Positions 39,673-55,871 of a DNA stretch of 64,000 bases are shown here, in pieces. The DNA is from Luteolibacter ambystomatis (lineage in GTDB: Bacteria; Verrucomicrobiota; Verrucomicrobiia; Verrucomicrobiales; Akkermansiaceae), in contig NZ_CP073100.1 in the NCBI RefSeq assembly GCF_018137965.1, positions 2,739,754 through 2,803,753 on the forward strand, in the 5' to 3' direction. The first letter of the stretch is position 1. Each line of letters starts with the position of its first letter. The notes under the pieces were generated by a model. That model was not told the origin of the DNA. It did no database searches and saw nothing but the letters and a program-made list of their open reading frames with translations. A program made the position numbers and the translations under genes.

Positions 39673-40127
39673 TCCTCTCCGAACTGAAGTCCCTGCTGGC
39701 GGAACACTCCACCCGCCAGTTCCACATCAGCTTGCCCGATGGCGATGCCGTTCCCGTGTGCTTCCACGTCACGGAAGTCGGCCGGACGCAAAAGACCTTC
39801 CTGGATTGTGGAGGCACCCGTCGCGATACCGTCACCTGCCAGCTCCAGGTCTGGGTGGTCCCGGATGTGGGCCATCGTCTGGAAACCGGCAAGATGGCGG
39901 CCATTCTCCGGAAAGCGAAAACCCTGCTGCCGGACGAGTCCGTCCCCGTCGAAATCGAATACGAGGACCGCATCATCTCCCAATACACCATCTCCCGCCA
40001 TGAAGTGACGGGGGAAGCCGTCGTGCTATATCTCACCCACAAGCACACCGAGTGCCTGGCTCCGGAGCTCTGTGGCTTGCCGCCCATCGGCGGCAACCGT
40101 TGCCTTGGCCCCCAAGGATGCTGCTGA
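39669..40127 (+). CDS. DUF6428-like protein of arsenic operons
   Basis: The 152-residue protein begins LSELKSLLAEHSTRQFHISL and contains FHVTEVGRTQKTFLDCGGT and QLQVWVVPDVGHRLETGKM, which match small cytosolic proteins I associate with DUF6428. They commonly sit between arsR and arsenic-resistance genes in Bacteroidetes and Verrucomicrobia. It has several cysteines (DCGG, CLAPELC, and a CC at the end) that could bind arsenic, but no function is established. It overlaps arsR by 4 bases and precedes aqpS by 5 bases, so it is part of the operon. Two in-frame upstream starts were rejected because they lie inside arsR. Confidence 0.75.
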   Translation: MILSELKSLLAEHSTRQFHISLPDGDAVPVCFHVTEVGRTQKTFLDCGGTRRDTVTCQLQVWVVPDVGHRLETGKMAAILRKAKTLLPDESVPVEIEYEDRIISQYTISRHEVTGEAVVLYLTHKHTECLAPELCGLPPIGGNRCLGPQGCC

Positions 40128-40132
40128 CTCCC

Positions 40133-40798
40133 ATGAAACGTCTCCTCGCCGAGTGCCTCGGCACCTTCATCCTCGTCTTCGCCGGGACCAGCGCGATCGT
40201 GGTGAACCACACCACCGGCAGCGTGATCGGCCATGCGGGGATCGCGCTGGTCTTCGGCCTGGTGGTGCTGGCGATGATCCACACCTTCGGCGATGTCAGC
40301 GGCGCGCATCTCAATCCGGCCGTGACGCTCGGCTTCGCAGCGGCACGGCGTTTTCCGTTGAACGAAGTGCCCGGCTACCTGCTCGCCCAATTCGGAGGGG
40401 CCATCACCGCCAGCATGGCGGTGAAACTACTATTCCCGCAGTCGATCACGCTCGGAGCCACGCTTCCTTCCGGCGGCTGGCAACAGAGTTTCATCCTGGA
40501 AGCGATCCTCACCTTCATCCTCATGCTGGTGATCCTCAGCGTCTCCACCGGCGCGAAGGAAAAGGGTATCACCGCGGGCATCGCCATCGGTGGCGTGGTC
40601 GCACTCGAGGCGATGTTCGCCGGTCCCATCTGCGGAGCCTCGATGAACCCCGCACGCTCGCTGGGTCCGGCGCTGGTTTCCGGACACCTGGACTCCCTCT
40701 GGATCTACCTCACCGCCACCGTGCTCGGCGCGCTGGCCGCCGTTCCGATCTGCATCGGTATCCGCGAACCCGGCTGCTGTGATGGCAAATGCCACTGA
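40133..40798 (+). CDS. aqpS: Aquaglyceroporin of the arsenic operon (AqpS-like)
   Basis: The 221-residue protein is an MIP-family channel with six membrane segments and both half-helix motifs, HLNPAVTL (near 62) and SMNPARSL (near 177). The usual arsenite efflux pump gene (arsB or acr3) is absent here. This layout, with an aquaporin between arsR and arsC, matches the known Sinorhizobium arrangement, in which arsenite made by ArsC leaves down its gradient through AqpS. The C-terminus ends in a cysteine-rich tail (EPGCCDGKCH) that may bind metalloid. It lies in the inner membrane. Confidence 0.85.
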   Translation: MKRLLAECLGTFILVFAGTSAIVVNHTTGSVIGHAGIALVFGLVVLAMIHTFGDVSGAHLNPAVTLGFAAARRFPLNEVPGYLLAQFGGAITASMAVKLLFPQSITLGATLPSGGWQQSFILEAILTFILMLVILSVSTGAKEKGITAGIAIGGVVALEAMFAGPICGASMNPARSLGPALVSGHLDSLWIYLTATVLGALAAVPICIGIREPGCCDGKCH

Positions 40799-40817
40799 AC
40801 CCCGCCTCCCAACCTTC

Positions 40818-41258
40818 ATGTCCTCCCTCCCCATCATCCTCGTCCTCTGCACCGGCAATTCCTGCCGCTCCCACCTCGCTGAAGGTATCCTGCGCAACGC
40901 ACTCGGCGACCGCTTCCGCATCGAAAGCGCCGGATCGAAGCCCGCCGGTTACGTCCATCCGCTCGCCATCCGCGCCATGGAGGAAATCAACATCGACATC
41001 AGCAGCCATCGTTCGAAGCACCTCGATGAGTTTCTGAGCGACACCGTGGAAACCGTCATCACGGTCTGCGGCCATGCCGACCAGGCCTGCCCGATGTTCC
41101 CCGGCCAGATGAACCGCCACCATTTCCCCTTTGATGATCCCGCGCACGCCACCGGCACGGAGGACGAGCAGATGGCCGTCTTCCGCCGGGTGCGCGATGA
41201 GATCCGCACCGTCTTCGAAGCCTATGCGGCGGGGCGGCTCGATTCCCTCCGAGCCTGA
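40818..41258 (+). CDS. arsC: Arsenate reductase, thioredoxin-coupled LMW-phosphatase type
   Basis: The 146-residue protein has the P-loop CTGNSCRS (C11, C-x5-R) and the redox pair C84 and C91 in CGHADQACPMFPG. This is the three-cysteine arrangement of the Staphylococcus pI258 ArsC (10, 82, 89). It reduces arsenate to arsenite in the cytoplasm using thioredoxin. An in-frame ATG at 40782 overlaps the aqpS end, but the 40818 start places the P-loop cysteine at the usual distance. It is the last gene of the arsenic operon. Confidence 0.93.
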   Translation: MSSLPIILVLCTGNSCRSHLAEGILRNALGDRFRIESAGSKPAGYVHPLAIRAMEEINIDISSHRSKHLDEFLSDTVETVITVCGHADQACPMFPGQMNRHHFPFDDPAHATGTEDEQMAVFRRVRDEIRTVFEAYAAGRLDSLRA

Positions 41259-41326
41259 AGCGCACGCTTGCGACCGGGAGAATGTCCGAAAGATACAGGC
41301 CGCACCCGGCGTTTTGCACGCATTGC

Positions 41327-42463
41327 ATGAAATACCCCGAACCTATTTCCCGGCGCAACTCGCTGAAAACAATCGGACTAGGCTGGATGGCATTGCAGTG
41401 CCCCACCCTGCTCCAAGCCCAGACCAAGCAGCCCGCTCCGTCCCGCGCCCGTGAGGTGACGGACTGGCTCGACCGCTACTGGGACGACAAGCGCGAGATC
41501 TACATGGACAAGGCCGACAAGAAGAACCCCACCGCGATCTGGGCCGGGGGCATTCTGTTCTCCACGCTGGTCGCCGCCGCCCGCCACGACAAGCAACGCT
41601 TCCAGCCGATGATGAACCACTACTTCAAGGGGTTGGAGGCCTACTGGGACCCGAAGGTGAAGATTCCCGGCTACGAACCGCTACCCACCGCCGGCAATGG
41701 CAACGACAAGTACTACGACGACAACGCGTGGATGGTGCTCACCTTTCTGGAAGCCTACGAGCAAACCGGAGAGGCGAAGTACCTGCGCCGGGCGAAGGAG
41801 ACGCACGACTTCGTCCTCAGCGGCTGGGACGACCAGCTCGGCGGCGGCATCTGGTGGCATGAACGCCACAATGATGATGCGAAAAACACCTGCGTGAACG
41901 CCCCCGCCGCCCTGAGCTGCTTCCGCCTTTCCAAGTTCAGCGATCCGAAGACGGCGGAGAAGCTCATTGCCCAGGGCAAAAAGATCGTCGAATGGACGGT
42001 GAAGACCCTGCAATCCGAGGACGGTCTGTTCATGGACCACATCAAGGTTTCCACCGGCAAGATCAGCCGCGCGCGCCTCACCTACAATACGGCACTGATG
42101 CTGCGCTGCTTCCTGTGGCTCCACAGCTACACCAATGATCCCGCCCACCTCGCGGAAGCCAAGCGCGTGGCGAAGGCCGCGGACTCGTTCCTGGATGGCA
42201 ATGGCGTTTATCGCGATTTACAAAAGTGGTCGCACCTCATGGTCGAGGCGGATATCGAGATGTACCGCCACACCAAGGATGACTATTACCTGAACCGCGC
42301 CAAAAAGACCTGCACCGCACATTACGATTCGTGGAAATCCGCGCCAAAACCGGAGGTCATCGACAATGCCTCATGCGCCCGCGAATTGTGGCTGCTCGAA
42401 GACCTCGACAGCCCCGCCGCCGTGAGATTCTGGCAAAATTCGGACAACCCCCGGAAGTCCTGA
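41327..42463 (+). CDS. Glycoside hydrolase family 76 (alpha-1,6-mannanase-like), Tat-exported
   Basis: The 378-residue product begins with a twin-arginine signal (SRRNSLKTIGLGW) close to the SRRxFLK consensus. The body is an alpha/alpha-barrel with the GH76 catalytic aspartate pair in YYDDNAWM (D131, D132) and repeats such as YLRRAKETHDFVL and LGGGIWWHER. The family cleaves alpha-1,6-mannans. The start at 41282 would put 15 extra residues before the Tat motif, so the second ATG was chosen. It follows arsC by 68 bases and may be separately transcribed. The tatA gene lies 190 bases downstream. Confidence 0.85.
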   Translation: MKYPEPISRRNSLKTIGLGWMALQCPTLLQAQTKQPAPSRAREVTDWLDRYWDDKREIYMDKADKKNPTAIWAGGILFSTLVAAARHDKQRFQPMMNHYFKGLEAYWDPKVKIPGYEPLPTAGNGNDKYYDDNAWMVLTFLEAYEQTGEAKYLRRAKETHDFVLSGWDDQLGGGIWWHERHNDDAKNTCVNAPAALSCFRLSKFSDPKTAEKLIAQGKKIVEWTVKTLQSEDGLFMDHIKVSTGKISRARLTYNTALMLRCFLWLHSYTNDPAHLAEAKRVAKAADSFLDGNGVYRDLQKWSHLMVEADIEMYRHTKDDYYLNRAKKTCTAHYDSWKSAPKPEVIDNASCARELWLLEDLDSPAAVRFWQNSDNPRKS

Positions 42464-42653
42464 TCCGTGGCGGCTCGATGGCCGGAAATAGTCCGGATTC
42501 CGCCCGTCAGGGGACAAAAAACGGCTTTCCCATACCCTGCCGGTACGCGACTGTCCCGGCAGGGAGCTGAATGCCGGATGGCTTGAGTTCTTGCCACGCC
42601 CGGGCCGGGCGGAGAATATCCTTTCATATCAAAAACATCAGTCCTCCAGTTTT

Positions 42654-42845
42654 ATGAATCTGCCTCTCGCCATTCTGAGCCCTGTCGAAATCGGTCTCAT
42701 CCTCGTGGTCCTGTTGCTGCTCTTCGGCGCGAAGAAGCTGCCGGAGCTCGCCCGCGGCGTGGGCAAAAGCCTCGGTGAATTCCACAAGGGCAAGGCCGAA
42801 AGCGAAGTCGAGAAGCCGAAGAGCGACTCCGACAAGCAGGCCTGA
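42654..42845 (+). CDS. tatA: Twin-arginine translocase subunit TatA/TatE
   Basis: The 63-residue protein has the standard plan: a short periplasmic N-terminus, one membrane helix (SPVEIGLILVVLLLLFGAKK), the hinge FGAKKLPELARGVGKSLGEF, and a charged C-terminal tail. It forms the pore of the Tat system in the inner membrane. No tatB or tatC is nearby. An upstream ORF start adds an unlikely cysteine-free extension before the membrane helix and was rejected. Two Tat-signal enzymes occur in the window, one of them immediately upstream. Confidence 0.92.
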   Translation: MNLPLAILSPVEIGLILVVLLLLFGAKKLPELARGVGKSLGEFHKGKAESEVEKPKSDSDKQA

Positions 42846-43052: not shown

Positions 43053-45497
43053 TCAGAAAGTATAGGTCGCGGAGAGGTAGAAGTTGGTGCCCGCAGCCGT
43101 GGACCGGTCATCCACCGAGCCCGCCTGACCCCCGAAGACATCGAGGCCCAGGTGCCCGCCACCCCGGCGGACCGTGCTCCAGTTCCAATACTTCTCGTTG
43201 AACAGGTTGTTCACCCCGGCATTGAGCGTGACGCTTTCGATCGGGTGATACCACGCGACGATATCAAGCGTGAACCACGCCGGTGGCCGGAACATCCGTC
43301 CGTTCATGGTGGTGTCATCCGTGCGGGTGACGGCGGCGGTGTAGGTGCCGAGCAACTTGGCCCCGTATTTCGCATCCGGTTCCTGATATCCGATCCAGCC
43401 CACCGTCTTCCAGGGATCGACGGTATTGAGCGCCGTGCCCTTGGTCTGGTTTTCACCATAGACCCGCCCGGAACTCAGGCCCAGCGTGAAGCCATCGAAC
43501 CGCCTGTCGGTTTCGCCCACGTTCCACTCCGCGCTGGCCTCGAGGCCGTAGATGATCGCCGCGCCGATGTTCTCCGTGGTCACCAGCACGGTGCCGTCCG
43601 GCATCGTATCCACCGGGACGTTGCCGTTGATGTAATCGCGATACTTCGTGAAGAAGGCCTCGATGCCCACCTTGCCCAGCCCGGACTCACCCTTGTAGCC
43701 CAGCTTGAAGGCGTGGCTCAGTTCTTCACGCAGGTCCGGATTCGGCACGGTGATCTGCTGGAAGCCGCCCGCGGGGTGCTCGAAGATCATCGTGAGCTCC
43801 TCCGCCGTGGGATTGCGGATGCCCATGCTGTATCCGGCGTAGGCTCGCGTGTGATCGGTGATCTTGTATTGAAGATCGAACCGTGGCGAGAGTCCGAAGT
43901 TCTCGTAGCCGCTGGAGGGCTTGAGGCCCAGATCGAGCAGGGCTCCAAGGCGCGCCAGATACGCCGGAGTCAGTTCGGCATTGATCTGATGGAAGTCACC
44001 GCGGAGACCCAGCGTGGTGCTCCAGCGCGAGCTCAGCTCGATCTCATCCTGGATGAAGATTCCCAGCCGGTTGGTCTCGGAGGGAGCGAAGGAGATGCGG
44101 TCGAACACCGTGGTCCGGGTGGAAACGATGGGCAGGCCGCCGTCCGGATTCGGCAGCACCACGCCATCGGTCTCGATGCGGTCGAAGCGGTTCGATGAAT
44201 TTTCCTGCGAAACATCCACGCCTCCGAGGAAGCGGTGCTTCAACCCGAACAACTCGAAGTCGCGACGCGCGATCGAATTGATGCCGTAGATCTCGGTTTC
44301 GAAATCGATCTTCTGGCGGCGGTTGCGTCCTTCGGTGGAGTCGATCCCCCACTCCTCGGGGAAGCCGGTCTCGCGGCGCGGATTGGTGCTGCGGTTGCGC
44401 GTGCCCATGTCCGCGTCCTGCCAATAAACATGCGTGTCCAAGGTGTCGATAACGCCCCCCACCGGTTCGTATAGCCAGTTCAGGCTGATGCGCTGGCGGT
44501 CCACGGCCTGCCAGTTGTCGATGCTCTTCTTGAAGATGTTGAACATCTCGATCGACGGATGGAGCGCGCTGCGCATGTCCGCGTGGATGCTGCGGTGGTA
44601 GTTCTCCAGCGTCAGCAGGAAGTGGTTTTCCCCGGAGCCATAGCCCGCCTTGGCGAGCCACGCGCTGCTGTCCATCTGCATCGGGTCCGGCGGGATGGTG
44701 CCATTGTTGGCGGTCTCCTCACCCTCGCGTCCGGCATAGACGAGCATGATGTCGAAGTCCCCCTCCTTCATCGCCCCGCCGAGCTGCCACGCGAGGCCCT
44801 CGTTGCGTGAGAAATACTGGGTGCGTGCGAAGCCGCCCCAGTTCTTCTTTCCCAGCAGATCGTCGGAGCCCAGCGTCTTCATCGAAACCATGCCGCCCAT
44901 GGCATCGCTGCCGTAGAGCGCGCTCGCGCCGCCCTTGAGGATCTCCACCAGCTGGAACATCGCCGGATCGAAGTAATCGCGGCCGATTCCGCCCGCGCCG
45001 GTTTCCGCGCCCGCGTCGAAGGAGGTCGAGGCATACTCCGGAGGCTGGCGGATGCCATCCACCTCCACGCCCACGCGGTTGCCCTCGGTGCCGCGGATGT
45101 TGAAGCTGCTCGATCCGCTCGCCGCATAGGCCACGGCACCATCGCCGGTGGTCATGTCGAACGGCACCACCACGGTGGGATCGTACTTCACGATGCCACC
45201 GAGATCCTGGGCGCCGGTCTGAAGCAGCGCCTCGCGGTCCACGCTTGCTACGGTACCCGCGGTATCCAGCCACGACCGCTGCGTGCGGGTGGCCACCACC
45301 ACCATTTCCTCAAGCTGTGGGAGGATGCCTCCGGAATCCTCCTTGCCGGCATCCTGCTTTTTCTCTTCCGGATCAACGACCGGAGCGGCGTCCTGCGCCG
45401 GGACCGAACCCGCCAGGCAAAGCGAGAGCATCCACACGAGGTGGAAACGGCTCCCGGCATGCCTGACGGCCGGAAGCATCCAATGGAAACCATTCAT
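43053..45497 (-). CDS. TonB-dependent receptor of the haem/haemoglobin type
   Basis: The 814-residue protein has a signal peptide (FHLVWMLSLCLAGSVPA), a TonB-box-like EEMVVVATRT, a plug domain (FNIRGTEGNRVGVEVDG, then LVEILKGGASALYGSDAMGG) and a 22-strand-type barrel ending in the outer-membrane signature YLSATYTF. In the barrel, SMGIRNPTAEEL and VPNPDLREEL occupy the places of the FRAP and NPNL boxes of haem receptors, with a histidine between them (FEHPAGG). The boxes are degenerate, so haem is likely but not certain. The upstream gene ends 49 bases away on the same strand, so it is probably the last gene of a three-gene operon. It imports its ligand across the outer membrane with TonB energy. 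Confidence 0.88.
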   Translation of the reverse strand: MNGFHWMLPAVRHAGSRFHLVWMLSLCLAGSVPAQDAAPVVDPEEKKQDAGKEDSGGILPQLEEMVVVATRTQRSWLDTAGTVASVDREALLQTGAQDLGGIVKYDPTVVVPFDMTTGDGAVAYAASGSSSFNIRGTEGNRVGVEVDGIRQPPEYASTSFDAGAETGAGGIGRDYFDPAMFQLVEILKGGASALYGSDAMGGMVSMKTLGSDDLLGKKNWGGFARTQYFSRNEGLAWQLGGAMKEGDFDIMLVYAGREGEETANNGTIPPDPMQMDSSAWLAKAGYGSGENHFLLTLENYHRSIHADMRSALHPSIEMFNIFKKSIDNWQAVDRQRISLNWLYEPVGGVIDTLDTHVYWQDADMGTRNRSTNPRRETGFPEEWGIDSTEGRNRRQKIDFETEIYGINSIARRDFELFGLKHRFLGGVDVSQENSSNRFDRIETDGVVLPNPDGGLPIVSTRTTVFDRISFAPSETNRLGIFIQDEIELSSRWSTTLGLRGDFHQINAELTPAYLARLGALLDLGLKPSSGYENFGLSPRFDLQYKITDHTRAYAGYSMGIRNPTAEELTMIFEHPAGGFQQITVPNPDLREELSHAFKLGYKGESGLGKVGIEAFFTKYRDYINGNVPVDTMPDGTVLVTTENIGAAIIYGLEASAEWNVGETDRRFDGFTLGLSSGRVYGENQTKGTALNTVDPWKTVGWIGYQEPDAKYGAKLLGTYTAAVTRTDDTTMNGRMFRPPAWFTLDIVAWYHPIESVTLNAGVNNLFNEKYWNWSTVRRGGGHLGLDVFGGQAGSVDDRSTAAGTNFYLSATYTF

Positions 45498-45546
45498 CTG
45501 TCAAAAGTGGGAGGTATCGCCGCACACCTGCGGCCAGGAGAGAAGT

Positions 45547-46614
45547 TCAACGGCTGACTTCGAGGCGCATCATCCGCCGTGGATTGGCGGACATCATGGC
45601 ATCATCGGAAACCTTGACCGATGATCGGCCGCTGGCAGTCACGACGGCCACACCGGATGCTCCGGTGCCCGACCACGACCACGCACCGGTGCCCACCTTC
45701 GTCGCAAGCGTCGACCAGGTCGTGAGATCGTTCGCCACCTTCACCCGGTAGGTGATCTCGGCCGGCGGAGTGTCGGGAATGGAGAACCCGATCCGCAGCC
45801 GTCCGTCCAAGCTCTCGGGCACGGGCGAGGCGGACCGGCCATTGTCGATGGTGGCGAGCGTGGGATTGGTCCCCAGCGCGTACTCCATCAGATTGGGTAC
45901 GCCATCGCGATCGGGGTCCGCCAGATCCGCCGCATTGCCGCTGTTCTCCGTGGTTTGGAAATACAACTGCCGCCACGTCTCAAGCGGAGTGGTGGGAGCT
46001 CCGCCGACCTGCTGGAAATCCGATGCCACATCGATCCGCGCGCCGACCACCGAGGTATGGTTGGCCAGCGGCATATGGATCTTCACGCTGTGGATTACAT
46101 CCGTGACCCCGGAGAGATCCCATTGCCACGTCACACCGCGGTAGGTGAAGGAGTCGATGTTCTCCATCTCCGGCACGCCGGTGTTGTTGTCCACCACCTT
46201 GGTGCCATCCAGGATCATCGGCAGCGTGGCGTGGATCTGCTGGTTTCCGCCATTGTAGCTCAGCACCGGACCGCCATTGAACGGAAAGGTCACGGCGGGA
46301 TCCCAGGTGACATCGAGCTGGTAGACCGCGTGCTGGATGTCGAAGTTGGTGGCGGTCTGGTTGACCGTCATCGAATACGCTCCGGTCCAGCTGTAGAGAC
46401 CCATGCCCGCACCGTATCCCGGACTGGCGACCGTCATCGTGCCGGTCATGGTCGAGGGTTTGTCCGGGATGCGATATGGATTCTGAGAGGCGAGAAAGGT
46501 CCAATAGGTCGTTTTGACCAGACCATCCAGCGCGTGGTTTTTCAGCAGCGATTGCGCGGTCACGGGCAAGGCGCCAAGCAGAAACGCTGTGGTGATAGTG
46601 AGTGAACGGAACAT
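45547..46614 (-). CDS. Secreted protein with the novel LSGV/His domain and a conserved C-terminal module
   Basis: The 355-residue product has a signal peptide (MFRSLTITTAFLLGALPVTA). Residues about 20-210 contain a segment (YRGVTWQWDLSGVTDVIHSV, then LANHTSVVGARID) that aligns with the divergent gene's product and with the N-terminus of the upstream repeat protein. The histidine in ANHT aligns in all three. Residues about 215-355 are the shared C-terminal module (TWRQLYFQ, ADPDRDGVPNLMEYALGTNP, YRVKVANDLTTWSTL, ending MMRLEVSR). It sits 26 bases after the repeat-protein gene and 49 bases before the receptor, in the middle of the operon. I do not recognise a known family; binding a ligand delivered to the receptor is an inference. 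Confidence 0.75.
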   Translation of the reverse strand: MFRSLTITTAFLLGALPVTAQSLLKNHALDGLVKTTYWTFLASQNPYRIPDKPSTMTGTMTVASPGYGAGMGLYSWTGAYSMTVNQTATNFDIQHAVYQLDVTWDPAVTFPFNGGPVLSYNGGNQQIHATLPMILDGTKVVDNNTGVPEMENIDSFTYRGVTWQWDLSGVTDVIHSVKIHMPLANHTSVVGARIDVASDFQQVGGAPTTPLETWRQLYFQTTENSGNAADLADPDRDGVPNLMEYALGTNPTLATIDNGRSASPVPESLDGRLRIGFSIPDTPPAEITYRVKVANDLTTWSTLATKVGTGAWSWSGTGASGVAVVTASGRSSVKVSDDAMMSANPRRMMRLEVSR

Positions 46615-46640
46615 GGCAATGAGGATGAAAGCTCCAACGT

Positions 46641-49600
46641 TCAAGGAGTGTCCGTGACCTTGGCGCGGATGAAGCCGCTTGAACCCGGCGTGGTCAGGCG
46701 GAAGCTGCGGTATTCCCAGCCCAGCGGATCGGAAAGCGGCGGCATGCCATCCGCATCCGCGGTCACTTCGGAAACCGGCAGCGTCCAGTTCACCAGATCG
46801 GCGCTGCCCTGGATGCGGTAGCGGACTCCATCGATCAGCACGGAGACGAGACCATTGGCATCCACCGTGAAGGCCCCCGCGTTCCTGCGGACCGCCAACG
46901 TGAGCAGCACCGGGCCCTCCACCGGCTTCGAGCGCAGCTTGCCGCCGCTCCCACCGGAAAGCGGCGCACCATCGAACGCGAACTCCGCGAGGTTGTTCCA
47001 GCCATCATGGTCCGGATCGTGGGCCTTGCCATCATTGACGCCTGCGGTGAGGGACTGGTTCGCGGTCCATGCATCGAACGGTGATCCGGCCGGTCCCTCC
47101 GTCACCAGCAGCCTGCCGTTTCCGAGGATGTAGGCGGACTCGTGCTCCGCGCCCGATCCGATCCGCCCCCACGTGCCGCGCACCTGGGCCACGCCATCGA
47201 TCTGGAATCCCTTGATGGTATCCGTGGAGGAATGCAGGAGATTCAGCGCGGTGCCGAATCTCAGCTTCAGATCCGCTCCATTTGGAAGGTTGGCGGCGGT
47301 AAGCGCCAGCGTGCCCTGGTTCAGGATGGTCGCACCGGTGTAGGTGTTCGCCCCGCCCAGGGTGAGGGTGTTGATGCCGGTCTTCACCAGCGTGACGGCT
47401 CCGGTGCCATTGTCCGTAATCGTGGCGCCGATGTCCGTGGCGCCACTCGCCGTGATCACCAGCTCGGAGGCCGTGTTCACTCCGGTGCCCGCGGTGAGCG
47501 TGCCGTTGTTGATCTTGTTCGTGCGGGTGCTGCTGCCGCCGCTGCCGATGATCCCGCCGCTCTCCACCCGCAGCGCGAAGCCGCCGAGATTGAGAACATT
47601 ACCGACCGTGCCGCCGCGGGCTCCGAGGAAGTTCAGGGTGTTGATGACGCGCGGAGCCGTCAACGTGCTGGTGAAGCCGGTGGTGGAGGAACTCGCGTTG
47701 AGCTTGATGTTGGAACTGGTGGTCCACGTGGTGTCGTTCGCGGCCGCCGTGTAGGCGAGGTAGCTGGTGAGCGCCGTGAGGCCATAGGTCCCGTAGGTCA
47801 CGAACTCGGTGGCCGCCACGCCGGACGATCCGGTGCCGGTGGTCGCCCACGGCCCGATGATGCCATCATCCAGCACCGGAGCCGTGCCCAGCAGGATCTG
47901 GTTCTTCACATCCGTGCCGATGGATTGGCCGGAGAAATGGATGGTCGCCCCCGGAACGCGCTCGAGCGTGCCGATCTGGACGACGATCTGGTTGACCGTC
48001 CCGCTGATGACCTGGTTGCGCGCGGTGTAGAAGATGTTCGCGCTCGATTCGAGCTTCAGCTTCGAGAACACTTCGGAGAAGAGGGTGCCCTCCGTGCCGC
48101 CGGGGAGATGGACCTCCAAGGTCGCCCCCTTCATCGTGATCGTGGCCGTGTCAGCGATACGATCTTCATAGTAGGAGTCGTAGTTTCCGACATTGACCAG
48201 CCGCAGCATGGTGTTCGGATCGAGCCGGACATCACCACGGATCGAGCCGAAGTCGCCGTTCAGGGTCAACGTTCCGCCCTCCACCGCGGTGCCTCCGGTA
48301 TACGTGTTCACGGCGGTCAGTTCCAGCGTGCCGGTGCCTGTCTTCACCAAACCACCGGTGCCGGAGACCACGCCGCTGAGACGCCCGTCGGCCGAACCGA
48401 GGCCGTTGTCCACCCGCACCACGCGCGGGGATGCGCCGAGGTCGATCGCGTTGGTGAGGTCCACGTTGTTGTCCGCGCCGATGTTCGAGAGGATCAGCTT
48501 CTTGCCATCCGCCACGAAACCGCCGCCGCCCCACGTCAGCGCCGCGCCGCCGTTCAGGACCACCGTGCGCGGCATCACCAGCATCGTCTCGTCCAAGGGA
48601 CCGCCGAAAGCCGCGAAGCCCCCGTCACCAGTGAACTCGATCTCGCCGGGACCGCTGCTCAGTGTTCCAGCAAGATCGCCCGAACCGAGGCCGAGCACGC
48701 CACCAGCGAGCTTCACATGACTCGCGGCAGGCAGAGCGGTGGCGCTGTCGATGCGCAGCATGCCGCCCGCGATCACGGTGTCCCCCGTGTAGGTGCTGGT
48801 GCCGCCGAGGATCTGCACGCCCGGCCCCTGCTTCACCAGCGCGAGCTGGTTTTCATTCGCACCCGCTCCACCGATTTTCCCAAGGAATGCCGGGACGTTA
48901 TACTGATCGTAGGAGGGAGACGTGAGCGTGAGCGTGGAGACCGCGGCATTGCCACCCACAATCGCCGAATCCGAGCTCGTCCCGGTGGTGCCGATGCCCG
49001 TGGTCTCATTGAAAATGTTCACGCCATCCGCGCGGATGGAGGTGAACGATTGGTCCGACTTCGCAACGCCATCACCGAGCACTAGCCTCGCGTTCTCCTC
49101 GGACAGGATCGTGGCATCCTGGGTGAACCGGCGGCTGTAGAGGTTCAGCGCGAAATTGGCTCCGAAGCGGTTGTCGCCCCCCTTCAGCACCACCAGCGTG
49201 TCTTTCAAATACAGCTCCAACAGTGCGGCCGCTGTATTGGTGTTGGTGCCGGTCACGGTGTTCGTGCCGCCCATCAGGATGATCTGGTTGTAGGTGTTGC
49301 CGGTGAAGGTGTTGGCACCGGAGAGCACGAGATTGCCATCGCCCTTCTTGTAGAAGCCCGGGGCGAGGACATCGCCGGAGACATCCAGCGTGTTCCCCCC
49401 GCCCACGGTGAGCAAACTGAACGCGCCGGCCTTCAATGGCGCGGAGATCGTGTGGGTCACGGTGCCCGGAGAGCTGGTGATCAAGCCGCCCTCGCCGATC
49501 GCCAATGCGGCGCCAGTGGAACCGATCGTGACTCCGCTGGCGGATGAGATGGACAGCGTGCTCGCGCCGTGGGCCGCATCCAGAGTCACCCCCGTGCCGG

Positions 49601-50450
49601 TGGGGAAGGAAATCTTGGTTCCCTCCACCGGCAGCGCGCCGCCGGTCCAGTTCGCCGTGTCACTCCACAGCAGGCTCGTTCCGCCGCCACTCCATTCCGT
49701 GGCCTGCGGGAAAACGCTTGCCGCGTAGGCCGTGCTGCTCTGGTCGATCCGCGCCGCATAGAGCTGCGCGTGCTGCACGCCGGTGAATTTCACCTCATAG
49801 GAAAGGATGTCCTCCGACACGCCGCTGAGGTCGAACTGGACGCCGCGGATGTTCTTGTAGATGTCCTCCATCCCGCTCGGCATCGCGGCGCTGCCACTAT
49901 AGACCTGCGAGACCAGATCCGAGTGGGAGGCATTCAACGTGAATGTCCCGGAGGCCGTGGTATAGTTGAGCACCGGCTGCGCGTGGTCGTGGAAGTCATA
50001 GCCGAATGCCTCGCCGATCTCCGCTTGGAAGGCCACCGTCTTGAGTCCCGCCACCGGAGTCTTGTCCACGAACCCGAGCGTACCACCGGCGAGGTTGATC
50101 GTGGCCGAGGCACCACCGAAGTAAATGGATGCGCCCGCCGGGTAGGGACCACCGGCCGTTCCGTTGGCGATCTTGTAGATCACCGCATCGCCGGAGGCGG
50201 ACGTGTTCGAGCCGATGGCCCCTACCGCGCCTGTTCCTGGATCGTAGCTGGTCCAGCTGCCACCCGAGGTCTTCCACGCCGCGGTTCCAGGAAAGATGAC
50301 GCCCGTATAGCCTCCCGCCACGGTGAGATTCGCCCAACCGTCGTAGTCCGTTTGCCCGCTCAGGGTGATCGGCACGGGAGCCGCAAAAGCGTTGCCGAAG
50401 CAGAGGGTGAGGAAGGCGGAAACGAGCAGCGGGGAGCGGAGAGGTTTCAT
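46641..50450 (-). CDS. Beta-strand repeat protein with the novel LSGV/His domain at the N-terminus
   Basis: The 1,269-residue protein starts with a signal peptide (LLVSAFLTLCFGNAFA). Residues about 25-245 form a domain (ITLSGQTDYDGWANL, GGPYPAGASIYFGGASA, FDLSGVSEDILSYEVKFTGV, QHAQLYAARID) clearly homologous to the divergently encoded protein at 50661. Repeats follow (TSLLWSDTANWTGGALP as a module start, then units such as LVLSGANTFTGN). The last 145 residues have AHDPDHDGWNNLAEFAFDG, YRIQGSADLVNWTL and the ending FIRAKVTDTP. It is the first gene of the operon leading to the TonB-dependent receptor. The longer upstream frame runs through the divergent gene and was rejected. Confidence 0.82.
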   Translation of the reverse strand: MKPLRSPLLVSAFLTLCFGNAFAAPVPITLSGQTDYDGWANLTVAGGYTGVIFPGTAAWKTSGGSWTSYDPGTGAVGAIGSNTSASGDAVIYKIANGTAGGPYPAGASIYFGGASATINLAGGTLGFVDKTPVAGLKTVAFQAEIGEAFGYDFHDHAQPVLNYTTASGTFTLNASHSDLVSQVYSGSAAMPSGMEDIYKNIRGVQFDLSGVSEDILSYEVKFTGVQHAQLYAARIDQSSTAYAASVFPQATEWSGGGTSLLWSDTANWTGGALPVEGTKISFPTGTGVTLDAAHGASTLSISSASGVTIGSTGAALAIGEGGLITSSPGTVTHTISAPLKAGAFSLLTVGGGNTLDVSGDVLAPGFYKKGDGNLVLSGANTFTGNTYNQIILMGGTNTVTGTNTNTAAALLELYLKDTLVVLKGGDNRFGANFALNLYSRRFTQDATILSEENARLVLGDGVAKSDQSFTSIRADGVNIFNETTGIGTTGTSSDSAIVGGNAAVSTLTLTSPSYDQYNVPAFLGKIGGAGANENQLALVKQGPGVQILGGTSTYTGDTVIAGGMLRIDSATALPAASHVKLAGGVLGLGSGDLAGTLSSGPGEIEFTGDGGFAAFGGPLDETMLVMPRTVVLNGGAALTWGGGGFVADGKKLILSNIGADNNVDLTNAIDLGASPRVVRVDNGLGSADGRLSGVVSGTGGLVKTGTGTLELTAVNTYTGGTAVEGGTLTLNGDFGSIRGDVRLDPNTMLRLVNVGNYDSYYEDRIADTATITMKGATLEVHLPGGTEGTLFSEVFSKLKLESSANIFYTARNQVISGTVNQIVVQIGTLERVPGATIHFSGQSIGTDVKNQILLGTAPVLDDGIIGPWATTGTGSSGVAATEFVTYGTYGLTALTSYLAYTAAANDTTWTTSSNIKLNASSSTTGFTSTLTAPRVINTLNFLGARGGTVGNVLNLGGFALRVESGGIIGSGGSSTRTNKINNGTLTAGTGVNTASELVITASGATDIGATITDNGTGAVTLVKTGINTLTLGGANTYTGATILNQGTLALTAANLPNGADLKLRFGTALNLLHSSTDTIKGFQIDGVAQVRGTWGRIGSGAEHESAYILGNGRLLVTEGPAGSPFDAWTANQSLTAGVNDGKAHDPDHDGWNNLAEFAFDGAPLSGGSGGKLRSKPVEGPVLLTLAVRRNAGAFTVDANGLVSVLIDGVRYRIQGSADLVNWTLPVSEVTADADGMPPLSDPLGWEYRSFRLTTPGSSGFIRAKVTDTP

Positions 50451-50660
50451 GAGCGTCGGGAGGTTTGAGGATGCCCCACCATGTCCCGCTCCGGATTTCC
50501 CCGCGCGCGCCTGCTTGCGTTTGACCAGCGTTCTTTTGCCATTCCGTCGGACGCGGGTGACGGAACATGTGACAATGACATCATCATGACAAATCATCGT
50601 CTTCCAAAGACAAGCAGCCGCGCGACAAAGACTATGAACATAGTACACGATGCGGACGCT
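50451..50660. promoter_or_regulatory. Divergent promoter region with palindromic candidate operator
   Basis: This 210-base gap lies between two divergent genes whose products share a domain, so a single regulator could govern both. It contains ACTATG-AA-CATAGT (50631-50644), a perfect 6-base inverted repeat. It also holds a TGACA-rich stretch near 50569-50600 with several CATCAT/ATGACA words that loosely recall Fur-type boxes without forming a clean one. Confidence 0.45.
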
Positions 50661-51422
50661 ATGACAAAAACAACTGCTATCGCCTTCGCCTCGCTGCTCC
50701 TTGCATCCGTCGCGAACGCGGAATACGTCGCCGATGCCGACCCCGTCACCTCCGGCAACCAGCCCGGAAGCATCTACAGCCCGCTGACCCTCAGCGGCAC
50801 CACCAAGTCCGAAGGCTGGACGAAGCTCACCGCGGCCAACTATCCGGGCAACGGCAGCTACCCGGGCAACAGCGCCTGGGTCGGCGCGCTCGGTTCCCAG
50901 GTGGGACCGAACGCCGGTGCCAACGGCCTCGCCAAGGTCTCCAATGGAACGAGCGGCGGCCCCTACCCGACCAGCGCCTCCATCTACCACGGCGGCTACG
51001 GCACCACGGCGAACACCTTCGGCGGAACGCTGTCCGTCCCTGTTTCCGGATCGGGCCTGCTCTCCGGCGTGAAGACCGTCATCTTCCAGCTCGATATCGG
51101 CGAGGCCTGGACCTACGACCTCTTCGATGATGTCGCGCCGGTCCTCACCTATACCACCTCCAGCGGCACCTACACCATCAGCGCCACCTACGCCTCGCGC
51201 TACGTGAAGTATCCGAACGGCCAGGTATACATGAACGGCACCTGGGAGGACCTGTATATCAACTCCCGCGCCTATCAGTTCAACCTCAGCGGCGTGACGG
51301 AAACCATCCTGTCCTACTCGGTCAGCTTCTCGGGAGTCGAGCACTCCCAGGTCTATGGTCTCGGCCTGCAGCAAAGCACCGCCACCCTGACCACCAACAT
51401 CCTGCCGACGAACATTCCCTGA
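50661..51422 (+). CDS. Secreted protein of the novel LSGV/His domain, divergent from the receptor operon
   Basis: The 253-residue product has a signal peptide (MTKTTAIAFASLLLASVANA). The body, about 220 residues, aligns along its length with the N-terminal domain of the repeat protein encoded divergently: LTLSGTTKSEGWTKL, GGPYPTSASIYHGGYG, LDIGEAWTYDLFDDVAPVLTY, FNLSGVTETILSYSVSFSGV, EHSQVYG. It has no repeats and no C-terminal module, so the domain also exists alone. An upstream ORF start at 50481 was rejected since it lacks a leader. A terminator hairpin follows. Function unknown; location periplasmic or extracellular. Confidence 0.82.
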   Translation: MTKTTAIAFASLLLASVANAEYVADADPVTSGNQPGSIYSPLTLSGTTKSEGWTKLTAANYPGNGSYPGNSAWVGALGSQVGPNAGANGLAKVSNGTSGGPYPTSASIYHGGYGTTANTFGGTLSVPVSGSGLLSGVKTVIFQLDIGEAWTYDLFDDVAPVLTYTTSSGTYTISATYASRYVKYPNGQVYMNGTWEDLYINSRAYQFNLSGVTETILSYSVSFSGVEHSQVYGLGLQQSTATLTTNILPTNIP

Positions 51423-51503
51423 TCGGGATCGTTCCGGTTTGTCTTCCACGTCCTGCCGGAGCCAAGGCCGGAAAGGCGCGGGATGAACTCCTGGAAAAAC
51501 AAA

Positions 51504-51593: not shown

Positions 51594-52259
51594 TCACTTG
51601 GATTCCGGGATCACCTTGATCCCCACCTCGCCCAACCGCTTTTCATCACCGGAGGGAGTGACGAAGACGAGACTGCGCGTGTCGTCCCGGTATTCCCATA
51701 GCGAGGTGTACACGGGAACCCCGGATTGCTTCGCGAAGTCGATGCGGATGCCGATGTTCCTCTGCCCGCCTCCCGGCCGGACATCGACGGGCTTCAATCC
51801 CTTTGGAACCTGCACCGCTTTCTTGTCGCAGAGCACGTACAGCTCCTCCGGGGTCACATTGAGGAAACGGATCGTTCCCCAGGCGAAGCCGGCCTCCGAG
51901 TCATCGATCACCAGCGCCTTGAGTCCGGAAGGCGCGGCCTCGTCCGGAACGAGAAGAATGAGCGGCCGCTCCATCGCTACCGGCACGCTGCATGACAAGG
52001 TCACGGGCGGCTCCCCCTCCTTCGCGGTGCGGTCGAGAGCGCGGATGACCAGCGGCGTCCCGGGAGCGTTCCCCGGATAGGCATGCGAGCGGCGCAGCGG
52101 ATGCAGGTCCTTGATGGGAACGTCCTTGTCTCCGGAAACCCACGCGAGCTTGCGCGCCGCGACCGATTCGTCCCACGCGAGCAACCTCGCATCACCGCCA
52201 TGCGCGGGAGATGCCAGCATGGCTGCCATGAGGAAAAACAACGGGCGGGGATGGATCAT
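51594..52259 (-). CDS. Secreted protein of unknown function coupled to the Verru_Chthon A gene
   Basis: The 221-residue protein has a signal peptide (LFFLMAAMLASPAHG) and a beta-rich body (LLAWDESVAARKLAWVSG, FAWGTIRFLNVTPEELYVL, GIRIDFAKQSGVPVYTSLWE). No domain is recognised. Its start overlaps the stop of the upstream Verru_Chthon A gene (ATGA on the minus strand), so the two are translationally coupled and probably work together, perhaps at the cell surface. The longer ORF upstream of the chosen ATG lies inside the neighbouring gene. Confidence 0.7.
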   Translation of the reverse strand: MIHPRPLFFLMAAMLASPAHGGDARLLAWDESVAARKLAWVSGDKDVPIKDLHPLRRSHAYPGNAPGTPLVIRALDRTAKEGEPPVTLSCSVPVAMERPLILLVPDEAAPSGLKALVIDDSEAGFAWGTIRFLNVTPEELYVLCDKKAVQVPKGLKPVDVRPGGGQRNIGIRIDFAKQSGVPVYTSLWEYRDDTRSLVFVTPSGDEKRLGEVGIKVIPESK

Positions 52260-55200
52260 GATTTCGCGAGGCTGGTGTTCCGTTCCTCGGCCGGGATGTA
52301 GCGGAACGAGACGATGGTGAAGCGGCGGCCGAAGGTTTTGTTCACGGGAGTCAGTGCGGCGACCTTCGTTTCGGGCGGCTGCGAGGAGTCCACCCAGTCC
52401 GGCGTGCGTTGCACGACCGCTTCGCACCACGCCTGCGCGACAGGCTTGCCCTGCGGATCATGGGCCTCGCCATAGCCGCGGATGATGAAGGTGTCCGACC
52501 TCACAGTGAGGCGCGCGCCGATGGAGCCGAGCACGTCCGCTTCCGTCAGGTAGCCCGGGATGCCGACGCCGGTCTTGGCCGGATTGATGTTTGCACCGTT
52601 GGGATAGTTGCCGGTGTTGAAGGTCTGCAGGAGATACTCGTTGTTCAGGCCGGTGCGGTCGATGGCCGTCTGCAAGGCACCGGAAAGGGCGGACGCACCA
52701 CCCGTCGGCTGGCGGTTCACGAACTCGCCGAGCGAGAAGAACGGGCCGCGCTTCTTCACCTCCGCCACCATTTCCTCCGCGAGCTTGCGGATCCTGCCAT
52801 CATCCAGGCTGCGATAGCCACTCCAGGCGTCGTTGGAGGAACCGCTTGGATAGCGGAACCTCGGGAAAGGCGAGCCATTCTCGTAAACCGTGGCACCGGA
52901 CGGAGAGCCATCGTCCAGCTTGAACGGCGTGCCGCGCAGGCCTGCCAAGACGGCACTCCAGGCATTGACGCTGGTCGAGTTCACATTGAACGCGCCATCC
53001 ACCATCAGGTGCGAGGCGATGCGGAGACACCCTTCCGGAACGGCCAACCGGTCCACCAGGGCCTTGTCCGTCATGCCGCGCCTGGTGAGCACCATGGAGG
53101 TGTTCTTCAAGGGATGAAGCACGGGATCCGTGACGAATGCCGTGAGCAGGTCACGCGTGCCGCCGCTGGCACTGGCGGTGCCGTTGGTCCACATGGAGGG
53201 GGAGCCGCTGCCTTCACGCGGGGTGAAGGTGGGAGCCAGACCGGAGAAGAAGAACGAGTCCCACAGCGCCTCATTGACGAGGAAGGACGTGTCCACCACC
53301 GGCAGACCCGCAGGCGAGAACTTCTCCCCGGAGGCCGCCGCCGTCATGACCTTGGCGACGGTGCCGCTGGGTAGATAAGCGGATGCCCAGCTGTTTCCAG
53401 CCTGGTTGGACGGACCGAAGGCGGTGGGGGCGAGGTCCGCATGCTGGAATCCCGCGATGGACAGCAGCGGCGCGCGCGGCAACTCGAAGAAGGCGAGCTT
53501 CGACCGCCCGTTCGATGCCGCATTGGAAGCACCATAGTAGGAGCACCGGCCATCCGGCGTGAGCTGGAGCCCCGCACCGGAAACGGACGCGCACTGGCGC
53601 ATCGCGGACTCGTAATGCGGACCGGAGGCGAAGGAGCCGCCACCGGTGAGGTAGCTGTTGACGAAGGTCTGGCGCGGGTTCGTGGTATAGGCGAGATCCG
53701 CCACCTGGTTGGCATCCACGGCCACGCGGTGGTAGGTTTCCAACACGCCCACCATCTTCGGCGCGGCCGCCAGCTCGGAGCCGGTGAAGGTCGGCGCGGC
53801 GAACGTCTGGTCACCGAGCACGTTGTTGTGGGAATGGATCTCTTCCATCAGCGACGGGGGCTTTCCGTTCATGCGTCCGGCATCCTCCATCGAGATGAAA
53901 TAATGATGCTGGCCGCGGGTGAAGCGGATGGTCCCATCCAGACGATCCGTGGGCTGCACCTGCATGGAGTTGGGAAAGCCGGAGCCGTTCATGGAGTCCG
54001 CCGTGGTGAGACGGATCGCGATTCCTCCCTTGGTATTGAACTGGGACGGATCATCCACCGGACGCATCCGCCATGTCCGGGTCTGTTCACTGCCGCGGCG
54101 GTCGAAGAACCGCGGTGCGTTGTCCACCAGCGAGAAGACGCGGACCTCGCCGGGTCCGAGCCGCACCGGACGCGGCGGGCTGGCGGAGCCATCGGCGGTG
54201 AGGTTGAGGAAAAAGTAGGGATCGACGTTGCGTCCGGTCGTTCCTCCGGAGGTGAAGAGCGAAAGCCAGGTGTCCGGATTCGCCCTCCGGGTGCCGCTCT
54301 GGTCCACCAGGTTCCACTGCGCGCTGAGCGGGAAGTCCATCCAAGGATAGATCACCAGCCCCTGGGTCTCCACCGCCACGTCATGCGGATTCCAAAGGGT
54401 GACCACGGGCGTGAACACGAGGTTCACCTGCTTCTGCGCATCCACCCACTCGCTGATGAAATACAACAGGCGGTCCAACACCGGACGGACCGCGGTCTGG
54501 CTGACCTGGCCGTCCGGTTTCCCCGTCGCCACCGGCCACGAGATGTTCGAGGGGGGGCGCTCGAAGGCCGTGGGACCTTCACGGAGATAGAGATGCCGGG
54601 GAATCCGGTAGAACGACCGGAGCGTGTCAAAGGTCGGGATGCCGGCGCAGTTGAACTTGTGGGTGTAGGTGATCTCGCCGTAGTTCGCCGTGAGCTGGAC
54701 CTGTCCGCCGGAAACCATGGGCGCATGGAGCGGCTTCTGGCCCTTGTAACCGGTGGTCTCCGAGCGGAAGGGATTCGCGCTGTTGTTCCATGCGGTCTGG
54801 GAGAACTCGCCATCGGAGAGATCGAAGCCGAGATTGAGATCGGTCTTCAGTCCACCATCGACCGGATTGGTCAGCAGGCCGGTGGCATGCGTCGTGTAGT
54901 CCTTGCCCAGACCGGACACCGGCGTATCCGCGGAGATGAGACTGCTGTCGAGTTGCACCTGCTTCAGATCGGTCACCCGTGCCGAGCGCAGGTTCCATCC
55001 GTCCTTGGGTTGCAGAAACGGCGGGTTCAATGCGGGATTCGGACGCGGCTGGGCCGCCAGCACGTCATTCATATCCGCCATCTGATCCGGGCCGCCTACG
55101 TTGAGCTTGGCCTTGGTGTTCTCCTGCACCACCGCCCACGCGGCGGCACCATCCTTCACGGTCACGGGAGCCGCCTTCAGATCGAAGCCATCCTGCTGCA

Positions 55201-55714
55201 AGCGGAACAGCGATGGCCACGACGGCTGCGGCGCGTTCTTGATCTCATCCTCCGTTTCGACCACGGCGGCATCGGGGCGTGACAAGAGCCAGCCGCGGAA
55301 GCGCGAACGTTTTTCCTTCGCATAGTCCGGAGCGGACCTGGTCGGATCATCGCAGTATCTCGGCGACCAGGATTCCCATACCCCCACCGCCTGCTTCCGT
55401 GATGTACCGGCCACCAAGTCACCATCCGCGGTGATCCTACGGTCGTCTCCGGCGAGCTGTTGAAGTCTCGACAATGCCAGAGCCACCGAGAGCCGCGCGT
55501 TCGCCATCGCCCTGGCACGCATCTCGTGCTGGCCCGATGACCGCAGCGTGACGGTACTCAGCGAAAGCAATCCCAGCGCGAGAATGCACAGCAACATCAT
55601 CATCATCATGACGACGATGAGCGAGAAGCCCCGGACCCGCGGCGGCGGTGGGGATGCGTAGGTGGCGGCCGCTTTCGCATGCGGAGCCGCGCCATGGTTC
55701 GGAAGGGTTTTCAT
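52256..55714 (-). CDS. Verru_Chthon cassette protein A-like, with pilin-like N-terminus
   Basis: The 1,152-residue protein has a prepilin-like leader: about 28 residues rich in A and P, then RGFSLIVVMMMMMLLCILAL, a hydrophobic helix preceded by a glycine as at prepilin peptidase sites. The following LRSSGQHEMRARAMANARLS and ARLQQLAGDDRRI-like stretch (LSRLQQLAGDDRRITADGD) match the start of Verru_Chthon cassette protein A. This phylum-specific family is usually encoded with partners B, C and D, which also have pilin-like ends. Here only A is present, coupled to one small secreted protein. Its function in other species is unknown; surface or pseudopilus-like assembly is inferred from the leader. 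Confidence 0.85.
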   Translation of the reverse strand: MKTLPNHGAAPHAKAAATYASPPPPRVRGFSLIVVMMMMMLLCILALGLLSLSTVTLRSSGQHEMRARAMANARLSVALALSRLQQLAGDDRRITADGDLVAGTSRKQAVGVWESWSPRYCDDPTRSAPDYAKEKRSRFRGWLLSRPDAAVVETEDEIKNAPQPSWPSLFRLQQDGFDLKAAPVTVKDGAAAWAVVQENTKAKLNVGGPDQMADMNDVLAAQPRPNPALNPPFLQPKDGWNLRSARVTDLKQVQLDSSLISADTPVSGLGKDYTTHATGLLTNPVDGGLKTDLNLGFDLSDGEFSQTAWNNSANPFRSETTGYKGQKPLHAPMVSGGQVQLTANYGEITYTHKFNCAGIPTFDTLRSFYRIPRHLYLREGPTAFERPPSNISWPVATGKPDGQVSQTAVRPVLDRLLYFISEWVDAQKQVNLVFTPVVTLWNPHDVAVETQGLVIYPWMDFPLSAQWNLVDQSGTRRANPDTWLSLFTSGGTTGRNVDPYFFLNLTADGSASPPRPVRLGPGEVRVFSLVDNAPRFFDRRGSEQTRTWRMRPVDDPSQFNTKGGIAIRLTTADSMNGSGFPNSMQVQPTDRLDGTIRFTRGQHHYFISMEDAGRMNGKPPSLMEEIHSHNNVLGDQTFAAPTFTGSELAAAPKMVGVLETYHRVAVDANQVADLAYTTNPRQTFVNSYLTGGGSFASGPHYESAMRQCASVSGAGLQLTPDGRCSYYGASNAASNGRSKLAFFELPRAPLLSIAGFQHADLAPTAFGPSNQAGNSWASAYLPSGTVAKVMTAAASGEKFSPAGLPVVDTSFLVNEALWDSFFFSGLAPTFTPREGSGSPSMWTNGTASASGGTRDLLTAFVTDPVLHPLKNTSMVLTRRGMTDKALVDRLAVPEGCLRIASHLMVDGAFNVNSTSVNAWSAVLAGLRGTPFKLDDGSPSGATVYENGSPFPRFRYPSGSSNDAWSGYRSLDDGRIRKLAEEMVAEVKKRGPFFSLGEFVNRQPTGGASALSGALQTAIDRTGLNNEYLLQTFNTGNYPNGANINPAKTGVGIPGYLTEADVLGSIGARLTVRSDTFIIRGYGEAHDPQGKPVAQAWCEAVVQRTPDWVDSSQPPETKVAALTPVNKTFGRRFTIVSFRYIPAEERNTSLAKS

Positions 55715-55807
55715 ACGAGCAATGAAACCGCCCGCGACATTCGGGATGCCCCCCTGACAGAAAGAAGAGGCACGAAGCCGGACACCCGTGGATGCACAAG
55801 AAACATC

Positions 55808-55871
55808 CGGGTGCCGCACCCGAATCACGAAGGCAAGGTCACATGGCCTACTGCGGAACCTGCGTCAGGTT
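55808..55871. promoter_or_regulatory. Two candidate operators upstream of the Verru_Chthon A / sigma divergent pair
   Basis: The 312-base gap between the divergent genes contains two perfect 6-base inverted repeats with 3-base centres: CGGGTG-CCG-CACCCG at 55808-55822 and AACCTG-CGT-CAGGTT at 55857-55871. They could bind a regulator of one or both genes. I see nothing else in the gap. Confidence 0.35.

Follow-up and report, generated by a model that had tools for sequence, protein, structure and literature searches.

A candidate haemophore-like domain in three proteins encoded beside a haem-type TonB-dependent receptor of Luteolibacter ambystomatis

The receptor locus and its shared domain

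The DNA analysed here (the window) is a stretch of 64,000 nucleotides from Luteolibacter ambystomatis (NZ_CP073100.1, positions 2,739,754 to 2,803,753), whose genome consists of one contig of 5.32 Mb. Between positions 43053 and 51422 of the window lies a minus-strand operon which encodes, in this order, a repeat protein of 1269 residues counted from its ATG (46641-50450), a protein of 355 residues (45547-46614) and an 814-residue TonB-dependent receptor of haem/haemoglobin type (43053-45497); a fourth gene, for a protein of 253 residues, is read divergently from the plus strand (50661-51422). This four-gene layout had been proposed from the letters of the sequence, and it stands, the gaps of 26 and 49 bases within the operon and the intergenic region of 210 bases between the divergent 1269- and 253-residue genes (50451-50660) being exact. 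Judged by eye, the 253-, 355- and 1269-residue proteins all start with a signal-peptide-like segment. Incidentally, the open frame of the 1269-residue protein extends upstream to a GTG at 51449, and that of the 253-residue protein has a further upstream opening at 50481.

The three proteins that accompany the receptor have a domain in common. The original prediction had aligned the N-terminus of the 1269-residue protein with the 253-residue protein over about 220 residues, and the two are indeed 43% identical over 229 columns (E = 3e-43), the domain spanning about 49695-50378 in the former and 50766-51419, as a single copy, in the latter. Pairwise, the 355-residue protein matches the other two weakly (E = 5e-4 and 5e-5); a profile trained on 32 sequences, none of them of its own subfamily, finds it at 4.9e-10, which upholds its proposed membership and places it, by sequence comparison, as a divergent member of the family (domain at about 45979-46545). 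In the same held-out test, 12 of the 14 withheld members outscored every open reading frame (ORF) outside the family, the best outsider reaching 0.0013, and two were not separated from outsiders (L056 at 0.003 and L055 at 0.036).

The suggestion that one copy sits on a C-terminal module was mistaken: the domain is N-terminal in both longer proteins, and the C-terminal part is an extension, the DPDRDG... region, in the 355-residue protein. In the 1269-residue protein the domain is followed by PATR beta-strand repeats (Pfam PF12951, 2e-21; NCBIfam TIGR02601) and a C-terminal tail; no autotransporter beta-barrel was found in the protein with Pfam at E up to 1, PATR alone being matched. The 253-residue protein lacks a PEP-CTERM tail. 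With a fourth copy at C1:685817-686362, the genome holds four copies of the domain, three of them in the window.

The family is sparsely distributed. Single-sequence searches found it in five of 59 related genomes and in 20 of 387 genomes of the phylum, and a profile search in 34 of 336 genomes of the order (the window's genome being included each time); no viral contig searched yielded it. The 94 members collected are mostly from Verrucomicrobiota; named loci include Geminisphaera, Coraliomargarita, Verrucomicrobium, Blastopirellula and metagenome-assembled genomes (MAGs) of Planctomycetales, Fimbriimonadaceae and Burkholderiaceae. MAG assignments may reflect binning errors, and the Burkholderiaceae and Fimbriimonadaceae copies (L075, L063) are to be read either as transfers or as such errors. 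Large ORFs beside two stalk-type domain genes (L013:10512-13040 and L117:10357-12924, both on the minus strand) score best of all non-members (E = 0.0029 and 0.0013), and could carry further divergent copies.

As the original prediction had it, the domain appears to be new, falling, PEP-CTERM tails apart, into none of the Pfam and NCBIfam families searched. When 47 members were scanned with these models, the PEP-CTERM types were the only ones matched by more than one member, every other model matching one member alone and at no better than E = 0.03; a PDB sequence search with the domain profile returned a single chain, AcuA, at E = 0.82. The domain thus appears to have no credible sequence relative in these three databases, and no publication on such a domain is among the titles listed by literature searches. 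PEP-CTERM-like tails, recognised by a regular expression, end 66 of the 94 members.

The receptor carries the Plug and barrel domains of Pfam, and its predicted haem type was confirmed by NCBIfam: TIGR01786 (haemoglobin/transferrin/lactoferrin) scores 335.5 bits, above its cut-off of 323.75, and is the sole receptor model listed to pass, the heme/hemoglobin model TIGR01785 reaching 290.7 bits (cut-off 316.85) and the siderophore and B12 models remaining far below theirs. By TIGR01786, then, the receptor is assigned to the haem receptor group. Five of 26 related receptors, gathered by their similarity to that of the window, were scored in this way and four passed TIGR01786, the window's included, which is to say three of the four relatives; that of L051 failed (289.9).

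Haem receptors with FRAP and NPNL boxes have a histidine between the two. The original prediction was right that the window's boxes differ from these (IRNP and NPDL in place of the exact motifs), and wrong in calling them degenerate: RNP...H...PN(P/T/S)xL occurs in all 26 receptors, with a histidine at the place of His574, between the RNP and NPDL boxes, in 26 of 26. The window's boxes have thus not decayed but belong to a variant common to these receptors.

Conserved residues, predicted fold and genomic neighbourhoods

The histidines of the QHAQ, EHSQ and ANHT segments, which had been proposed to be one conserved residue, fall in a single alignment column, domain position 193 (His228 of the 253-residue protein), where 91 of the 94 members have histidine. 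The three exceptions, L139, L140 and L142, all score low (40-45 bits), and L142 lies in a DUF6607/receptor operon. As striking as this histidine, and unmentioned in the original prediction, is a tyrosine at domain position 74 (Tyr109 of the 253-residue protein), present in 94 of 94 members. The next most conserved columns are Leu127 (90/94) and Trp18 (84 of the 85 members with a residue there).

An AlphaFold2 model of the domain of the 253-residue protein, based on 47 sequences, is a confident all-beta structure (predicted local distance difference test, pLDDT, 94.6; predicted template modelling score, pTM, 0.91), in which Tyr74 lies in a short strand. Foldseek returned nothing under E = 0.001 for this model, the best match being at 5.8e-3. 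VIA-align ranked first a phage baseplate chain (Z 8.8), a tandem CBM22 (carbohydrate-binding module; 8.3) and the N-terminal domain of a xylanase chain (8.2), followed by CBM, ephrin-receptor, toxin and cyclase chains at Z 7-8, values near the background level stated by the tool itself. The probable fold is therefore a sandwich resembling a jelly roll.

Sixty-nine loci were annotated with profiles built for this study, and 68 had a domain ORF at the threshold; of 15 loci, seven (L064, L068, L070, L072, L073, L074 and L077) were left out as duplicate contigs. Exclusion of 13 of the 68 for want of 5 kb of flanking sequence left 55 loci with that length or more on either side. In 24 of these 55, the window's locus included, a receptor, identified with a profile started from that of the window, lies within 5 kb, as against about 3% expected per locus by chance (10% in the densest genome); this background comes from 20 chosen domain-positive genomes, which contain 229 receptors in 104.7 Mb (sizes rounded). 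Having been collected by homology, the loci are not independent of one another, and the binomial figures here, like the Fisher figures below, overstate independence and serve to rank rather than to prove. The association with TonB receptors in other genomes, anticipated in the original prediction, is in this sense borne out; neither a known family, nor an unconserved histidine, nor a lack of TonB receptors elsewhere, the three outcomes that were to speak against that prediction, was found.

Within the same distance in the 55 loci are DUF6607 (18 loci), HmuT-like (9), HemS (6) and HugZ-like (4) genes; 35 loci have at least one of receptor, DUF6607, HemS, HmuT and HugZ, and 20 have none. There are three main haem layouts. 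In the first, a domain gene, a domain gene with C-terminal extension and a receptor gene follow one another (L012, L044, L051-L056, L112); the window, L041 and L115 belong here as well, with one domain carried on a PATR stalk and a short domain gene read divergently. In the second, the order is domain, DUF6607 and receptor (L111, L114, L127, L132, L134, L135). In the third, DUF6607 stands beside the domain with no receptor within the stretch examined (12 rows of the tree described below). Some operons of the first kind run on into genes of haem uptake, namely HemS, HmuT, FecCD and ATP-binding cassette (ABC) genes in L051 and L054-L056, and HmuT, FecCD, ABC and a HutZ/HugZ-like gene in L052 and L053. 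The genes of L053 and L055 were verified by Pfam (PF01497, PF01032, PF00005, PF01243, PF05171); the HutZ-like gene matches NCBIfam HutZ at 2.5e-45 with 154 bits, under the curated cut-off of 225, and a single-sequence search of seven genomes with the L053 HutZ-like protein gave no match and, for want of a positive control, is uninformative. A further case is Geminisphaera colitermitum (L067), where the domain gene stands between two HugZ-HmuT pairs, with FecCD and ABC genes.

A tree of 89 of the 94 domains (five under 60 bits were dropped), rooted at its midpoint only, contains two separate clades in which every row is adjacent to a receptor, one of 7 rows (families f7, f14 and f34) and one of 17 rows, the window's own family with the 355-residue protein. 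Genomic context labels change 14 times on the tree, against a mean of 38 after shuffling. The short partner and stalk forms fall in mixed clades, together with rows without a nearby haem gene. The all-receptor clades and the mixed ones together suggest that the domain was paired with the receptor early and that its other forms have moved repeatedly.

DUF6607 (PF20311) deserves attention as a second candidate haemophore. Of the 35 domain-positive genomes 29 have it, vs one of 45 domain-negative ones (Fisher 8e-15) and, within the window's genus, 12 of 12 vs none of 26 (Fisher 4e-10); the contrast is mostly confined to one family and genus. For these counts, 27 domain-negative genomes were re-searched with the profile and G047, whose match is weak and partial (4.2e-8) and which lacks DUF6607, was counted as positive; in G669, counted among the 29, DUF6607 is a mere fragment at a contig end (3.3e-9). 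The AlphaFold model of DUF6607 (pLDDT 93.9) superposes on PDB entry 8xjc from Riemerella anatipestifer with Z 34.4 and a root-mean-square deviation of 1.7 over 270 residues at 38% identity, the next matches being far lower (phycobiliprotein lyase 10.1, nitrobindin 9.3), and its sequence profile finds the 8xjc chain at 9.1e-87; 8xjc is a 'novel haemophore' by the title of its PDB entry alone, and the literature searches listed no paper whose title concerns that entry. DUF6607 genes, such as those at L111:10588-11526 and, in the window's genome (G000), at C1:686644-687456 and C1:814287-815186, adjoin haem-type receptors in several loci, and the neighbours of the second copy in the window's genome (L146) are uninformative.

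An AraC-family regulator gene (L111:8711-9598) recurs near domain and DUF6607 loci; counting the query, 27 ORFs match it at 1e-10 or better. The weaker matches may be ordinary AraC relatives, and a haem- or iron-responsive role of the regulator is possible. In L016, L122 and L130 the order is DUF6607, domain, a secreted protein of 339-367 residues, a pseudopilin-like protein and the AraC regulator, with no receptor within the stretch examined; L120 and L125 share this layout in part, the 339-367-residue protein not being picked out there.

L041, L042 and L115 have the window's divergent arrangement as well. A 14-base palindrome in the window's 210-base region, ACTATGAACATAGT at 50631-50644, has one match in the window vs 0.01 expected; it was considered as an operator and rejected, being absent, with up to two mismatches, from the promoters of seven relatives.

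As for the surroundings of the operon, an aquaporin-family gene (PF00230) overlaps a low-molecular-weight phosphatase/arsenate-reductase-like gene (PF01451) at 40052-41258 on the plus strand, possibly an arsenic detoxification pair. Downstream of the operon are, also on the plus strand, a GH76-family glycosidase gene (41282-42463; PF03663, 8.7e-38), which has no relative in the other loci examined, and a gene for a short protein that by eye is TatA-like (42591-42845). Beyond the 253-residue gene, a minus-strand gene of 1190 residues (52256-55828) has no Pfam match and one relative, in L050 (2.6e-44), and is the only one of six window neighbours tested to have a relative in another examined locus.

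Haem capture and its alternatives

On balance, the evidence tips slightly towards the domain being a haemophore-like module, that is, a secreted or surface-borne beta-sandwich which takes haem, or a haem protein, and passes it to a TonB receptor. Homology, gene order, receptor class, residue conservation and genomic association are established here, and there is good support for some part in haem uptake; beyond it, I infer that the domain itself binds haem and, along the same line, the route of secretion, haem as the ligand, its ligation by tyrosine and histidine, the hand-over and the mode of display. The three proteins of the window would work outside the cell, catching haem or a haem-containing protein, probably by way of the conserved Tyr/His pair, and delivering it to the adjacent haem-type receptor. 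The 253-residue form, the domain alone and devoid of a PEP-CTERM tail, would probably be released and may diffuse; the 355-residue form, with its extension, would be the immediate partner of the receptor; and in the 1269-residue form the domain would be projected on a stalk of PATR repeats. Extended to the whole family, the proposal is more tentative and falls short of even confidence: a new structural class of haemophore with a jelly-roll fold and Tyr/His ligation, which Verrucomicrobiota might release, anchor by PEP-CTERM tails or carry on PATR stalks to feed TonB haem receptors, in many cases alongside DUF6607. Planctomycetota and an Armatimonadota MAG also contribute members.

Several observations weigh against haem capture by the domain. 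The Tyr/His pair is kept near haem-type genes (His 58/59, Tyr 59/59) and elsewhere (His 33/35, Tyr 35/35) alike and is for this reason no proof of a haem function; it could be structural or serve another ligand. The domain is not exclusive to receptor operons and also occurs away from any haem gene looked for: in 31 of the 89 tree rows no listed haem gene lies within 10 kb in the stretch examined, and there the tyrosine is always kept and the histidine nearly always. Some loci without haem genes have pseudopilin-like or CBM-like PEP-CTERM neighbours. The closest folds, weak matches as they are, are carbohydrate-binding and ephrin-receptor jelly rolls, and by title no haem protein (HasA, HmuY, NEAT and HtaA included) is among the fold matches listed, an absence that proves nothing.

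No convincing Fur box was found in 24 promoters, the best matches agreeing with the 19-base consensus at 9-13 of 19 positions. The window's promoter scores 12/19, equalled in 12 of 200 random stretches; the best score is that of the L061 promoter (2 of 200 as good), and 18 of the 24 are matched by at least 43 of 200. The window's genome, moreover, has no HemS and, for FecCD, two weak partial matches only (29.8 and 27.2 bits, cut-off 26.5). Finally, in genomes that have DUF6607, that protein rather than the domain may act as the haemophore; the six domain-positive genomes that lack it all belong to family f4 and have one copy of the domain each, three of them PATR-stalk forms and three weak.

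The foremost alternative, unlikely and yet to be reckoned with, is that of a partner or scaffold: the domain would not itself bind haem, and would rather display, dock or anchor, for instance by presenting DUF6607 or by shielding the mouth of the receptor. Such a partner or scaffold would suit the presence of DUF6607, the family of the deposited haemophore, within 5 kb in 18 of the 55 loci, the PEP-CTERM-like tails of 66 of the 94 members, and a fold akin to protein- and sugar-binding jelly rolls. The receptor operons of the window, L041, L042, L012 and L051-L056, however, have no DUF6607 within the stretch examined, and the near-absolute conservation of the Tyr/His pair exceeds what a generic scaffold seems to require.

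Improbable, to a greater degree, is a CBM-like PEP-CTERM surface protein that binds carbohydrate or matrix, its closeness to haem genes reflecting shared regulation only. CBM22, CBM16 and CBM4 are among the structural matches at Z 7.3-8.3, members bear PEP-CTERM tails, and a CBM96-like gene in L014, the GH76 gene near the window's operon and the pseudopilin-like genes are fitting neighbours. Values of Z 7-8 are, however, common background by the tool's own note, and GH76 is confined to the window among the loci examined; the receptor is of the haem type, with a SusC/RagA signature of 14.1 bits against a cut-off of 46.2, and haem ABC, HemS and HutZ-like genes recur across separate lineages. That the cargo is rather a metal, a siderophore or cobalamin is very improbable, for even if receptor families share a fold and cross-match (the siderophore and B12 models staying far below their cut-offs) and the window's genome has neither HemS nor a strong match to FecCD, TIGR01786 is the sole listed receptor model to pass, HemS and HutZ-like genes lie in operons of the same family, and DUF6607 is linked to a deposited haemophore.

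Comparison with known systems

By sequence, the domain appears to be none of HmuY, HasA, NEAT, HtaA or DUF6607. As regards DUF6607 and 8xjc, the two families are neighbours in 18 of 55 loci and likely act in the same pathway; they differ in that DUF6607 has no sequence match to the domain and that the predicted folds are a lyase/nitrobindin-like barrel with helices for the former and a jelly-roll-like sandwich for the latter. The 1269-residue protein resembles the passengers of PATR autotransporters in its repeats, and differs from them in that no barrel was found and in its new N-terminal domain.

HasR is the TonB receptor partner of HasA; HtaA and ChtA of Corynebacterium form a Gram-positive system that is not known to have a TonB receptor. 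No match to HasA, NEAT or HtaA is among the 13 Pfam families reported for the 47 members at E up to 0.5. HasA ligates haem through His32 and Tyr75, according to an excerpt of PMC6200708, and the likeness, by analogy, would lie in the Tyr/His pair and in the TonB receptor, set against the lack of any HasA match in the 47 members. The corynebacterial CR haemophore domains, in an excerpt of PMC12494546, are beta-sandwiches with an axial tyrosine, situated in a helix, and a helper tyrosine or histidine. The resemblance, a sandwich with tyrosine and a helper residue, may again be regarded as analogy; no sequence match was reported, and Tyr74 is in a short strand of the domain model.

A further parallel is the HmuY/HmuR pair of Porphyromonas gingivalis, in which a haem-binding protein delivers haem to a TonB receptor (PMC8911585, in excerpt), as is proposed here by analogy. 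HmuY ligates haem with two histidines, and one HmuY homologue is assigned to a Verrucomicrobia bacterium (both from the excerpt of PMC6200708); the present domain has one tyrosine and one histidine, with a single widely conserved histidine column. Identity with HmuY was rejected by sequence, PF14064 matching none of the 47 members at E up to 0.5 and nothing in the window's genome.

What is predicted of the Tyr/His pair is specific and can be tested at little cost. Should haem binding be borne out, the domain would give a function to a group of unannotated PEP-CTERM proteins and a context to DUF6607, 'unknown' in Pfam despite matching a deposited haemophore, and it would add an independent solution to extracellular haem capture.

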